A stretch of DNA of 64,000 nt, taken from Actinomycetes bacterium. GTDB taxonomy: Bacteria; Actinomycetota; Actinomycetes; Nanopelagicales; Nanopelagicaceae. The notes under the pieces are model-generated. The model had not been told where the DNA came from and made no database searches. It worked only from the letters and a program-made list of their open reading frames with translations. The stretch spans positions 1 through 64,000 of the forward strand of contig JAHEXJ010000003.1 in the NCBI GenBank assembly GCA_023252155.1, written 5' to 3'. Shown here piece by piece: positions 25,306-30,289 of the stretch (within the stretch, counting starts at the first letter, position 1; every line of letters starts with the position of its first letter). The translations under genes were made by a program, and so were the position numbers.

Positions 25306-26577
25306 TTACTTAACTGTTTGGGCCTTCAGGGTGGTTTCTTGTCCGCCCTTTACAACCTCAATGGTTACGTCCTTGGCCAATGTGTCACCAGTTAGGGTGC
25401 TGATTGACAGCGCCTTTCCTAGAACAGAGACCTTGGCAGGAATTGTGATTCCTGAACCAGAGAAGATTGCATTTGTTACGCCCTTGCGAGTTCCATCAGA
25501 TTTGGCGATTGCGGCCAAGATAACCTGGACTGCAGCAACACCATAAACTGGATAGGAACCAACTGGAGCCTTTCCGTATGCCTTCTTGTAAGCCTTAACG
25601 AAGTTGGCACCGGCGCCCTTTGGATCGATCTTTGCCAACAAATCGCTGGAAAGACCTGCGAATGATAGGTAAGCACCATTGGCTTCAGGCATTGAGTTAA
25701 ATTGTGGGTAACCAGTAAATCCATCTGGTGCCATGAACTTAACCGCCGTGTTGTCGCCAAGAACTGCAACCTTGTCCTTCATCAACTGTCCACCGTTGTT
25801 ATCAAAGATACCGCCGACATAAATCATGTCTGGGTTAAGAGCCTTGATCTTGGTGAAGAGAGCTGTGTAATCGGATTGCTTTGCATCCCAACCTTCGCCG
25901 TAGGCGCCGCTTGAGAGAACATTGAGGCCGATCTTCTTGGCTTCAGTTGTGAATGCCTGCGCAACGCCTTGACCGTAGGTCTGGGTGTCATTGAGGACAT
26001 AAACGTTTTTTACCCCAATTGACTTCGCGAACTGTGCTGCGGCCGCGCCCTGATTGTCATCAGTTGTGCAAACACGTGCGTAGTTGCGAACGCCTGTTGG
26101 GTAGTAAACATCTGGCTCGCCTGGGTTCCATGCCTTGGTCAAGCCAGGGTTGGTGTTGGCGTCAGAAACCATTGTCATTGCCCCACCAGGTGCCTGGTTA
26201 AGGATAGGAATTTCGATCTTTGCGCAACCAGAGTTGTACGTTCCCATTACGGCAACCTCACTCTTGTTGGCTACGTGAGCCTGCGCGTTTGCAGCGCACT
26301 TTGCTGGATCCCAAGATGCAGCTGCAGCGGTCGCGTCATCGTAGATCTTGAACTTGACCGTGTACTTGCCGGCCTTGTACTTGATCTGCTTGAGGTAGAG
26401 CGCAATTGCCTTGTTTGTTGAATCATTTGAATCGAACGATGATCCCTGTAGAGGAAGATCGGACGAAATTGTTAGGACCTTCGTTGCGGCATCTGCCGCT
26501 GAAGTTCCCGCTACTAGTCCTGCAGCAACCATCGCAACAGATGCGACGATGCCTACAGCACGATACGTCTTCTTCAT
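25306..26577 (-). CDS. livK: Periplasmic-type binding protein of the liv ABC transporter, copy 1 (non-lipoprotein)
   Basis: This substrate-binding protein of the Leu/Ile/Val-binding type I fold has 423 residues. A Sec signal peptide (1-31) ends in AADAA with no lipobox cysteine. Residues after 36 (ISSDLPLQGSSFDSNDSTN) are the typical start of the ligand-binding lobe. VAVMGTYNSGCAKIEIPILN and MIYVGGIFDNNGGQLMKD are conserved with copy 2. The gene has AGGAAGG six bases before its ATG and its own promoter. The exact ligand is unknown. For a Gram-positive cell the lack of a lipid anchor is odd. Confidence 0.9.
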   Translation of the reverse strand: MKKTYRAVGIVASVAMVAAGLVAGTSAADAATKVLTISSDLPLQGSSFDSNDSTNKAIALYLKQIKYKAGKYTVKFKIYDDATAAAASWDPAKCAANAQAHVANKSEVAVMGTYNSGCAKIEIPILNQAPGGAMTMVSDANTNPGLTKAWNPGEPDVYYPTGVRNYARVCTTDDNQGAAAAQFAKSIGVKNVYVLNDTQTYGQGVAQAFTTEAKKIGLNVLSSGAYGEGWDAKQSDYTALFTKIKALNPDMIYVGGIFDNNGGQLMKDKVAVLGDNTAVKFMAPDGFTGYPQFNSMPEANGAYLSFAGLSSDLLAKIDPKGAGANFVKAYKKAYGKAPVGSYPVYGVAAVQVILAAIAKSDGTRKGVTNAIFSGSGITIPAKVSVLGKALSISTLTGDTLAKDVTIEVVKGGQETTLKAQTVK

Positions 26578-26762: not shown

Positions 26763-28019
26763 CTATTTCAGCGCCCAGGCAGTTAAAGTAGTTTCTTTTC
26801 CGCCCTTTATGACTTCAATGGTGATATCTATAGCGTTGGTATCACCACTTTTTGGATCAATCTTTAATGACTTCCCAAGCACAGATTCGTTGGCAGGGAT
26901 GGTAATTCCTGATCCTGAGAATATTGCATCGGTCACGCCCTTACGCGTTCCATCAGATTTAGCGATTGCCGCCAAAATAACTTGCACGGCGGCGACCCCA
27001 TAAACAGGATAGGACCCAACCGGTGGCTTGCCGTATTCGGCTATGTAGGACGTGACGAATCGTGCACCTGCCCCCGTTGGCGCGATCTTTGTCAGCAAGT
27101 CGCTAGACAATCCAGCAAAAGATAGGTACGCACCTGTTGCTTCGGGCATGGAACTAAAGGCTGGATAACCAGTGAATCCGTCTGGCGCCATAAATTTAAC
27201 TGCGGTGTTATTGCCAAGTACGGCAACTTTGTCCTTCATCAACTGTCCACCGTTGTTATCAAAAATGCCTCCGACGTAGATCATGTCAGGGTTGAGTGCC
27301 TTTATTTTTGTAAATAGCGCTGTGTAATCTGGTTGCTTAGCATCCCAACCTTCGCCAAAAGGACCACTCGATAGAACTATAAGCCCCTGCTTCTTGGCTT
27401 CCGTCGTGAAGGCTTGAGCTACACCTTGGCCATATGTCTGCGTGTCATTTAGAACGTAAACGCTTTTTACGCCAATGGATTTGGCAAATTGAGCGGCCGC
27501 TGCGCCTTGATTATCATCCGTTGTGCAGACACGTGCGTAGTTGCGAACACCTGTCGGGTAGTAAACGGCCGGCTCTCCTGGATTCCACGGCTTGGTAAGA
27601 CCAGGGTTTGTGTTGGCATTTGAGACCATCGTCATCGCCCCACCGGGTGCTTGATTGAGAATTGGGATTTCGACTTTCGCACAACCAGAGTTGTACGTGC
27701 CCATCACTGCGACTTCATCCTTGTTGGCCACGTGGGCTTGCGCATTGGATGTGCATTTAGCTGGGTCCCAAGAACCAGCAGAGGCAGTTGCATCATCGTA
27801 GATCTTGAACTTGACGGTGTATTTGCCAGCTTTGTAGTTAATTTGTTTGAGGTAAAGAGCAATCGCTTTATTGGTTGAGTCATTTGAATCAAACGAAGAA
27901 CCCTGAAGAGGAAGGTCTGAGGAAATAATCAGAGTGTTTGCGGAAGAACATGCCGATAAGGTTCCAACTGCCAATACCGCGATCGCGACCAAGCCAATAA
28001 TTCTAAATCGATTCTTCAT
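26763..28019 (-). CDS. livK: Binding lipoprotein of the liv ABC transporter, copy 2
   Basis: This is a paralogue of the adjacent livK1 product with very similar mature sequence (SSDLPLQGSSFDSNDSTN, then GTYNSGCAKVEIPILNQAPGG). Its start is different: a lipoprotein signal peptide of about 23 residues with lipobox LSAC and C24 as the lipidated residue. It would be a substrate for the lgt and lspA products also in this window. ATG 28019 (MKNRFRIIG) has GGGAG seven bases upstream and gives 418 residues. A longer frame from 28049 is less likely. Tandem duplication is the simplest origin. Confidence 0.9.
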   Translation of the reverse strand: MKNRFRIIGLVAIAVLAVGTLSACSSANTLIISSDLPLQGSSFDSNDSTNKAIALYLKQINYKAGKYTVKFKIYDDATASAGSWDPAKCTSNAQAHVANKDEVAVMGTYNSGCAKVEIPILNQAPGGAMTMVSNANTNPGLTKPWNPGEPAVYYPTGVRNYARVCTTDDNQGAAAAQFAKSIGVKSVYVLNDTQTYGQGVAQAFTTEAKKQGLIVLSSGPFGEGWDAKQPDYTALFTKIKALNPDMIYVGGIFDNNGGQLMKDKVAVLGNNTAVKFMAPDGFTGYPAFSSMPEATGAYLSFAGLSSDLLTKIAPTGAGARFVTSYIAEYGKPPVGSYPVYGVAAVQVILAAIAKSDGTRKGVTDAIFSGSGITIPANESVLGKSLKIDPKSGDTNAIDITIEVIKGGKETTLTAWALK

Positions 28020-28112
28020 GGGTATTCTCCCTTGAGGTGTCCCGAACAAAAGGGGATTGATTCAGTCTCTTCCCTGCAGGAGCTGAATACAAGGGATTCC
28101 AACGACTAGTTT

Positions 28113-28718
28113 TTACCTCTCGGGCACTGCTGTCGGGGAAATGACGGCCAGCGCAACTTCTTTCATGCTCATGCGCCTATCCATAGCTGCACGTTGAATC
28201 CACGAAAAGGCTTGTGGTTCGGAGAGGTTGAGAGCACTCATCAGAATGCCTTTTGCGCGATCAATAAGTTTGCGGGTTTCGAGTCGGTCTTGCAGATTGG
28301 CGATTTCGGTTTCAAGGGAGATCATTTGTTTATGTCTACTTATAGCAATTTCCAACGCGGGAACTAAATCAGTAATTGAAAAAGGTTTGACAACATAGGC
28401 CATCACACCGGCATCCCGGGCACGCTCCACCAATTCCTTCTGACTAAATGCTGTCAACATAAGTACCGGCGCAATGTGAATAATTTCTTCAGCAGCAGAG
28501 ATGCCGTCAAGCACCGGCATCTTCACATCCAAGATCGCCAAATCAGGTTTCAATTCCTGAACTAAGGCAATCGCTTCTTGCCCGTTGCTTGCCTGACCAA
28601 CGACTTCATATCCCGCTTCTGTCAGCATCTCGACAAGATCCATGCGAATTAGTGCTTCGTCTTCAGCCACGACGATTCTGGGAGTGGGTGTAGAAATCCG
28701 TTTGGGTTCTGATGTCAT
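28113..28718 (-). CDS. pdtaR: ANTAR-domain response regulator, PdtaR type
   Basis: This 201-residue protein has an N-terminal receiver domain: acidic pocket AEDEALIRMD (18-27), phosphoacceptor D64 in LAILDVKMP, T89 in LTAFSQ and K111 in VVKPF. The C-terminal ANTAR RNA-binding domain (about 133-190) has RKLIDRAKGILM and AFSWIQRAAMDRR. PdtaR proteins act as RNA-level antiterminators controlled by a PdtaS-type kinase, not seen here. The ATG lies one base after the 3' end of tRNA-Leu(CAA), leaving no room for a Shine-Dalgarno outside the tRNA, so the mRNA may become leaderless after tRNA 3' processing. Confidence 0.93.
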   Translation of the reverse strand: MTSEPKRISTPTPRIVVAEDEALIRMDLVEMLTEAGYEVVGQASNGQEAIALVQELKPDLAILDVKMPVLDGISAAEEIIHIAPVLMLTAFSQKELVERARDAGVMAYVVKPFSITDLVPALEIAISRHKQMISLETEIANLQDRLETRKLIDRAKGILMSALNLSEPQAFSWIQRAAMDRRMSMKEVALAVISPTAVPER

Positions 28719-28719
28719 G

Positions 28720-28792
28720 TGCCCCGAGTCGGATTCGAACCGACACTATGCAGTGTTTGAGACTGCCCTCTCTACCGTTGGAGTACCGAGGC
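28720..28792 (-). tRNA. tRNA-Leu(CAA) with short variable loop
   Basis: A 73-nt cloverleaf: acceptor GCCTCGG/TCGGGGC (two G-U pairs), D-stem CTC/GAG, anticodon stem GCAGT/ACTGC with loop CTCAAAC (anticodon CAA), T-arm GTCGG-TTCGAAT-CCGAC, and discriminator A73. CCA is not encoded. The D-arm (3-bp stem, loop with AAC-GGTAGA) resembles tRNA-Leu, but the variable region is only ATAGT, 5 nt, whereas tRNA-Leu normally has a long variable arm. It lies between pyk and pdtaR. Confidence 0.88.
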
Positions 28793-28801
28793 GCGCCACA
28801 T

Positions 28802-28807
28802 AGTCTA
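28802..28807 (-). promoter_or_regulatory. -10 element of the tRNA-Leu promoter
   Basis: TAGACT on the minus strand lies 9 bp before the tRNA 5' end, so the primary transcript would start a few bases before the mature tRNA. No good -35 box was found. The same hexamer precedes polA, the MFS gene and hisD. Confidence 0.5.
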
Positions 28808-28849: not shown

Positions 28850-30289
28850 CTACCTGTAAGCGGGCGCTATGCCTCCGACAGCGTCACCAATTCTATGAAC
28901 GCGCATCGCATTGGTTGATCCAGGTATTCCCGGAGGGGAACCGGCGACGATGATGACTACTTCTCCTACGAGAGCTCTCTGTGACTGCATGATGATCGAA
29001 TCGACTTGCTTCACCATCTCGTCAGTGTGATTGACCATTGGCGCCAACATCGGTTCAACTCCCCATGTGAGTGCCAAACGGTTATAGGTTCCCGCATCCG
29101 GCGTAAGAGCCAAGATCGGAATATGTGACCGTAGTCGGGCCATTCGTCGTGCCGAGTCGCCACTCTTTGTGAATGCGACCAAGAATTTTGCTCCGACTAT
29201 CTCGCCCACCTCAGTGGCGGCTTTTGTAATTGCACCGCCCTTAGTTCGCGGTGTGTGCGACAAAGGACGAATGCGGTCGAGTCCACCTTCTTCTGTTCGC
29301 TCGATAATCCGCGCCATCGTCTGAACTGTCTCAATAGGGAATTCTCCGACGCTGGTTTCACCCGATAGCATCAAGGCGTCCGCGCCATCGAGAACGGCAT
29401 TAGCACAGTCAGTGGCTTCGGCTCTCGTTGGGCGAGAGTTCGTGATCATCGAATCAAGCATTTGAGTAGCAACAATTACCGGCTTGGCTGACTCTCGAGC
29501 CAACTCAACGCATCTCTTCTGAACTAGTGGCACATCCTCGATGGGAAGTTCGACTCCAAGGTCTCCACGAGCGACCATGATGCCGTCGAAGGCGTCGATG
29601 ATATTTTCGAGGTTGGCGACAGCTTGGGGTTTTTCGATTTTGGCGATGACGGGTACTCGAATTCCCACTTCATCCATAATCTTGTGAACGCCGGAAATGT
29701 CATCGGCACTGCGAACGAAGGAAAGAGCGATGAAATCGGCCCCAGCGCGAAGACCCCATCGCAAATCCTCAATGTCCTTCTCCGAGAGCGCAGGAACAGA
29801 AACTGCAACACCTGGGAGATTAATGCCTTTGTTGTTACTCACGGCGCCAGGCTCGATTACCTTGGTAATCACATCGTTGCCTTTCACTTCCAAAACTTCG
29901 ACGGTTACTTTCCCGTCATCGATCAAGATGCGATCCCCCGGCTTGCAGTCACCAGGTAGACCCTTATAAGTCGTACCCACTCGCTCTTTTGTGCCTTCGA
30001 CTTCATCAGTAGTGATCGTGAATATGTCGCCACGTGCCAACTCATGCGGACCGTGGGCGAATCGAGCTAGTCGAATTTTTGGTCCTTGTAGATCAACAAG
30101 TATGGCAACTGCTTGACCTTGCTCTGCTGCCGCGGCGCGAACCATGTCGAGGCGAGCTTGATGTTCGGGATAGCCACCGTGCGAAAGGTTTAGGCGAGCC
30201 ATATTCATTCCAGCCGCAATTAATTCGCGGATCTTCTCGGGAGTCTCAACAGCTGGTCCCAAAGTACAAACAATCTTCGCTCTACGCAT
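28850..30289 (-). CDS. pyk: Pyruvate kinase
   Basis: Pyk makes pyruvate and ATP from phosphoenolpyruvate. The 479-residue protein has the N-terminal MRRAKIVCTLGPA, ARLNLSHG, the active-site KIEKPQAVANL with the catalytic lysine, VARGDLGVELP for the metal and substrate, and MLSGETSVGEFP. The C-terminal regulatory domain (about 350-479) is complete. It lies 9 bp after gltD. Confidence 0.97.
   Translation of the reverse strand: MRRAKIVCTLGPAVETPEKIRELIAAGMNMARLNLSHGGYPEHQARLDMVRAAAAEQGQAVAILVDLQGPKIRLARFAHGPHELARGDIFTITTDEVEGTKERVGTTYKGLPGDCKPGDRILIDDGKVTVEVLEVKGNDVITKVIEPGAVSNNKGINLPGVAVSVPALSEKDIEDLRWGLRAGADFIALSFVRSADDISGVHKIMDEVGIRVPVIAKIEKPQAVANLENIIDAFDGIMVARGDLGVELPIEDVPLVQKRCVELARESAKPVIVATQMLDSMITNSRPTRAEATDCANAVLDGADALMLSGETSVGEFPIETVQTMARIIERTEEGGLDRIRPLSHTPRTKGGAITKAATEVGEIVGAKFLVAFTKSGDSARRMARLRSHIPILALTPDAGTYNRLALTWGVEPMLAPMVNHTDEMVKQVDSIIMQSQRALVGEVVIIVAGSPPGIPGSTNAMRVHRIGDAVGGIAPAYR

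Follow-up and report, generated by a model that had tools for sequence, protein, structure and literature searches.

Is a tRNA with a leucine anticodon, a leucine-type D-arm and no long variable arm still a leucine tRNA, and how common is such a form? Bacterial tRNA-Leu is described as long-armed. In the window, by which we mean the whole 64,000-nt stretch of DNA analysed here, ARAGORN found a single tRNA, tRNA-Leu(CAA), at 28719-28792 on the minus strand. Rfam family RF00005 matched 28720-28792 on the same strand over its full length, scoring 52.1 bits against a family cut-off of 29. The gene has the following parts:

28720 to 28792, minus strand: short-armed (class I) tRNA-Leu(CAA), 73 nt, no CCA (ARAGORN, Rfam RF00005 at 52.1 bits, covariation).
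28768 to 28783, minus strand: D-arm with the 3-bp stem CTC/GAG and the 10-nt loop CAACGGTAGA; the stem covaries, and the architecture is common to the genome's five tRNA-Leu.
28757 to 28759, minus strand: anticodon CAA, which reads UUG (ARAGORN and reading of the sequence).
28745 to 28749, minus strand: variable loop ATAGT, 5 nt, long arm absent (5 nt in 162 of 165 relatives).
28720, minus strand: discriminator A73 (A in all 165 relatives).

Along the minus strand the tRNA reads GCCTCGG TA CTC CAACGGTAGA GAG G GCAGT CTCAAAC ACTGC ATAGT GTCGG TTCGAAT CCGAC TCGGGGC A, without an encoded CCA. An earlier, sequence-only reading had called it a tRNA-Leu whose D-arm is of leucine type and whose long arm is missing, without stating the strand. 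That call was correct, as were the well-folding cloverleaf, anticodon CAA, discriminator A, the 5-nt ATAGT between the anticodon and T stems and the total of 73 nt. For the D-arm, its 3-bp stem stands, but the GGTAGA that it took for the loop is only part of the longer leucine-type loop CAACGGTAGA, which contains A14, A15, G18 and G19, with 13:22 unpaired (C.A). U48 of the ATAGT loop is expected to pair with A15. The features of a tRNA-Leu are thus present (leucine anticodon CAA, A73, A14, A15-U48, G18G19 and the leucine-type D-arm), and the 5-nt loop is too short for class II, which is defined by a variable arm of at least about 10 nt.

The D-stem of this one sequence can form in two 3-bp registers because of a GAGAG repeat, and the folding program picked the alternative one. 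Relatives settled the register, with two-sided changes at 10-25 in 10 and at 11-24 in 13 of 36 diverse sequences. Over the whole cloverleaf, 98.9% of stem cells are paired in the 36 diverse CAA relatives, compared with 76.9% in shuffles, and two-sided changes occur at 17 of the 20 pairs. The cloverleaf of tRNA-Leu(CAA) is beyond chance.

The source is one draft assembly, 83.8% complete, and a missing arm could in such a case stem from faulty sequencing or assembly, or mean that the gene is a pseudogene in decay. Independent genomes refute this reading, which we regard as vanishingly improbable: nearly every same-genus genome with the gene carries exactly these 73 nt (100% identity), a short-armed tRNA-Leu is present at 118 of 118 genome loci among the matches listed, and covariation is strong. 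The same identity excludes the base-level error, raised in the sequence-only reading, that might have hidden a longer arm.

That reading had left open whether other actinobacteria share the tRNA. Nearly all Actinomycetes sampled do, many with pdtaR adjacent. Ten short-armed tRNA-Leu served to build a covariance model. Of 197 Actinomycetes genomes, 195 had a match with an E value of 1e-9 or less, and in about 177 it was 1e-13 or less; the matches weaker than 1e-13 may be other tRNAs. At 1e-13, the model reached 73 of the 246 genomes of the phylum sample, other classes included. With a DNA pattern we found at least 118 loci in the genome collection, each with a short-armed tRNA-Leu(CAA) or (UAA), and among the matches listed are Mycobacterium, Nocardia, Gordonia, Streptomyces lincolnensis, Bifidobacterium, Corynebacterium, Micromonospora and Ca. 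Planktophila versatilis. Across 165 distinct sequences, taken in part from the matches listed, A73 is present in 165, the AA..GG.AGA D-loop in 164, U48 in 163 and the 5-nt loop in 162; for part of the 165 the pattern itself demanded U48, GGNAGAG and a spacing that leaves about 5 nt for the variable loop, and it did not demand A73 or A14-A15. Within the class Actinomycetes almost every genome has the short form; it is also present in other classes of the phylum and in many phage contigs, and is rare elsewhere. Most actinobacteria appear to use short-armed tRNAs for the UUA and UUG codons.

Two further sets of matches were noted. All 80 pattern-matched viral contigs examined (L269-L348) carry a short-armed tRNA-Leu. 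At least nine pattern loci lie in MAGs assigned outside Actinomycetota, such as Chloroflexaceae, Planctomycetota and Acidobacteria (L205, L241, L262, L161, L175, L179, L182, L206, L228), where contamination is possible; the Chloroflexaceae MAG (L205) has short CAA and UAA forms and long GAG and CAG forms.

A comparison with the genome's other tRNA-Leu, proposed at the outset, gave a mixed picture: five are present in the 1.8-Mb assembly, of which CAA and UAA are short-armed and UAG, CAG and GAG long-armed. Compared position by position, all five combine an unpaired 13:22 with A15, U48 and A73, a combination found in no other distinct tRNA of the genome. We had dropped global-alignment similarity in favor of this comparison because of gap artefacts; leucine stands out only at the identity positions, not in overall similarity to the genome's tRNAs. 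By itself the D-loop motif is no leucine marker, as tRNA-Asn and one tRNA-Gly match it too. The leucine features of the genome's tRNA-Leu agree with the determinants of E. coli tRNA-Leu, which are A73, A15-U48, G18G19 and A20a; in that species the long arm is no determinant, and variants without it are still charged (PMC9976931).

Relative to bacterial class II tRNA-Leu, as represented by E. coli and by the genome's own UAG, CAG and GAG forms, the short form has the same 3-bp D-stem, 10-11-nt D-loop with AA..GGYAGA, unpaired 13:22, A15-U48 and A73, but has a 5-nt loop where class II has a 13-15-nt arm, and A9 in place of G9. Human mitochondrial tRNA-Leu(UUR) likewise lacks a long arm, reads UUR and owes its identity to A73 and A14 (PMC9976931). 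It is, however, mitochondrial and has a floppy anticodon arm, whereas the bacterial short form is chromosomal, with a conserved and covarying cloverleaf.

Normally a tRNA-Leu can be told by its long arm, and a tRNA without one might carry a different amino acid, with UUG partly or wholly reassigned. UUG accounts for 161 of 641 leucine codons (25%) in 15 window genes. When PolA, TrpB and pyruvate kinase were aligned to solved homologues, UUG sites fell on leucine in 19 of 27 cases, as CUN sites did in 56 of 74. This alignment, the complete leucine feature set of the tRNA and the alternation of the pdtaR locus with a regular long-armed tRNA-Leu(CAA), described below, make reassignment extremely unlikely. 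One LeuRS gene was found, and the unusual charging that the sequence-only reading had considered is unsupported.

In three near-complete relatives (G151, G021 and G015), Leu(CAA) and Leu(UAA) are both short-armed. Among the long-armed tRNAs listed for them, which are Ser, Tyr and Leu(UAG, GAG), with Leu(CAG) in G015, Leu(CAA) and Leu(UAA) are absent, and a divergent long-armed Leu(YAA) could conceivably still lie below the search threshold. Because these three relatives show no long-armed CAA or UAA form, yet UUG is common and aligns with leucine, tRNA-Leu(CAA) is, as judged from sequence, almost certainly an armless tRNA that is charged with leucine and decodes UUG in the ordinary way. Everything points to short-armed tRNAs reading UUA as well as UUG as leucine. 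The CAA tRNA need not be essential alone, since UUG may also be within reach of the UAA tRNA.

We therefore hold it highly probable that tRNA-Leu(CAA) is a functional elongator with a class I loop, which LeuRS would charge with leucine and the ribosome would use to decode UUG. An ordinary LeuRS would recognise A73, A14, the A15-U48 Levitt pair, G18G19 and the leucine-type D-arm, not the long arm, and the tRNA, with its 5-nt class I loop, would decode UUG in elongation. It would belong to a phylum-wide short-armed set for UUA and UUG, with the CUN tRNA-Leu retaining the arm. We conclude that this is an ordinary function in an unusual form: a short-armed tRNA, to all appearances leucine-specific, that is the norm in Actinomycetes.

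The tRNAs next to pdtaR in other actinobacteria, which the sequence-only reading had suggested comparing, occupy a conserved slot that holds either a short-armed or a long-armed tRNA-Leu(CAA). The adjacency extends across Actinomycetes and other classes of the phylum, and in Actinomycetes the two genes are mostly divergent. In five genomes with only weak model matches (G102, G036, G108, G076 and G181), a long-armed tRNA-Leu(CAA) fills the slot; G102 and G036 each have one such gene and a long-armed tRNA-Leu(UAA). These long-armed genes, found at pdtaR of some Streptomyces-like and other Actinomycetes, share slot and anticodon with the short form and differ by the long arm. Genus g24 of family f19 holds both forms, short in G089, G061 and G122 and long in G102 and G076, so that a single locus is able to switch between two tRNA classes within one genus. 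In G248 (L422, with L124), a genome of another class, the tRNA-Leu(CAA) is short-armed and the tRNA-Leu(UAA) long-armed. By its complementary occurrence at one locus, the short form appears equivalent to long-armed tRNA-Leu(CAA). Pairwise identity places the long-armed CAA forms at about equal distance from other long-armed tRNA-Leu and from short forms; the arm may have been lost in place or the gene replaced, and the switch may have run in either direction.

Short-armed tRNA-Leu for UUA and/or UUG is thus a trait of a whole bacterial class, with species of Mycobacterium, Nocardia, Streptomyces and Bifidobacterium among its bearers. Such tRNAs affect isotype classifiers and are natural test material for the true requirements of LeuRS. 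Our search of the open-licence literature found no description of a short-armed or class I bacterial tRNA-Leu, although the form may already be known to specialists. A mycobacterial study noted a short variable loop only for a cluster-encoded tRNA-Leu(UAG) (PMC6582537), and a review calls bacterial tRNA genes 'surprisingly uniform' (PMC4033280).

The tRNA of the window lies directly ahead of pdtaR, among these features:

28850 to 30289, minus strand: pyruvate kinase gene, upstream of the tRNA (phmmer to 5wrp, E 6.6e-171).
28802 to 28807, minus strand: -10-like hexamer TAGACT, 15 nt before the tRNA, a candidate from sequence conservation.
28719, minus strand: single C between the discriminator and the pdtaR start codon (C-ATG in 36 of 37 Nanopelagicales loci).
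28113 to 28718, minus strand: pdtaR, a response regulator with an ANTAR domain, its ATG one base after the tRNA (Pfam PF00072 and PF03861).

A TANNNT hexamer is present 14-16 nt ahead of the tRNA in most Nanopelagicales loci; a consensus promoter scan gave no promoter. The tRNA and pdtaR are on the same strand in Nanopelagicales, a freshwater lineage, and 36 of 37 loci, which include two pairs from one genome each, read tRNA-C-ATG (junction loci L036-L056, L058, L065, L104, L114-L117, L120, L121, L155, L170, L174, L183 and L187), with L223 the exception. The one-base spacing (28718-28720 in the window) is kept across the Nanopelagicales loci while both flanks diverge. In L253 the frame opened by the junction ATG is interrupted. 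In L038 and L065 the receiver domain starts right at that ATG, and a later pdtaR start is therefore unlikely. The same-strand order is probably derived, because L057, from the same family, has the divergent order of other families.

The exact abutment on pdtaR in Nanopelagicales, together with a tRNA sequence that is 100% identical almost throughout the genus sample, could also be expected of an RNA that no longer takes part in translation and acts as a regulatory RNA or pdtaR leader. We consider this very unlikely: in other actinobacteria the tRNA is divergent from pdtaR, yet conserved there; the anticodon loop, T-arm and A73 are conserved; and no replacement long-armed tRNA-Leu(CAA) is listed in near-complete relatives. 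A non-canonical role, as once suggested, is not required to account for tRNA-Leu(CAA).

For a translating tRNA-Leu(CAA), the simplest reading of the junction geometry is that tRNA and pdtaR would share one transcript in Nanopelagicales, and that a cut after A73 in tRNA 3' processing would leave a pdtaR mRNA with a one-base leader, starting CAUG. More tentatively, and with the chances somewhat against it, a single precursor cut may both finish the tRNA and make the leaderless pdtaR 5' end, through an enzyme other than canonical RNase Z. If so, the output of an antitermination regulator would be tied to the maturation of a UUG-reading tRNA. Canonical RNase Z (TIGR02651) gave only weak sub-cut-off matches in this genome and eight relatives (G000, G015, G151, G021, G008, G007, G160, G047 and G010); because no match lies above the cut-off, the hypothesis of RNase Z cleavage is weakened, and another nuclease may carry out 3' processing. 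As with leaderless actinobacterial mRNAs, no leader or ribosome-binding site would fit unless it lay within the tRNA. The 5' ends of those mRNAs come from the transcription start, whereas that of pdtaR would, from geometry, come from tRNA processing. The junction offers a simple testable case in which a tRNA end would set an mRNA start.

Many tRNAs in the genomes searched for RNase Z have no encoded CCA. Downstream of pdtaR, the window contains two adjacent, very similar genes for substrate-binding proteins of the branched-chain amino acid type (25306-26577 and 26763-28049), likely a recent tandem duplication.
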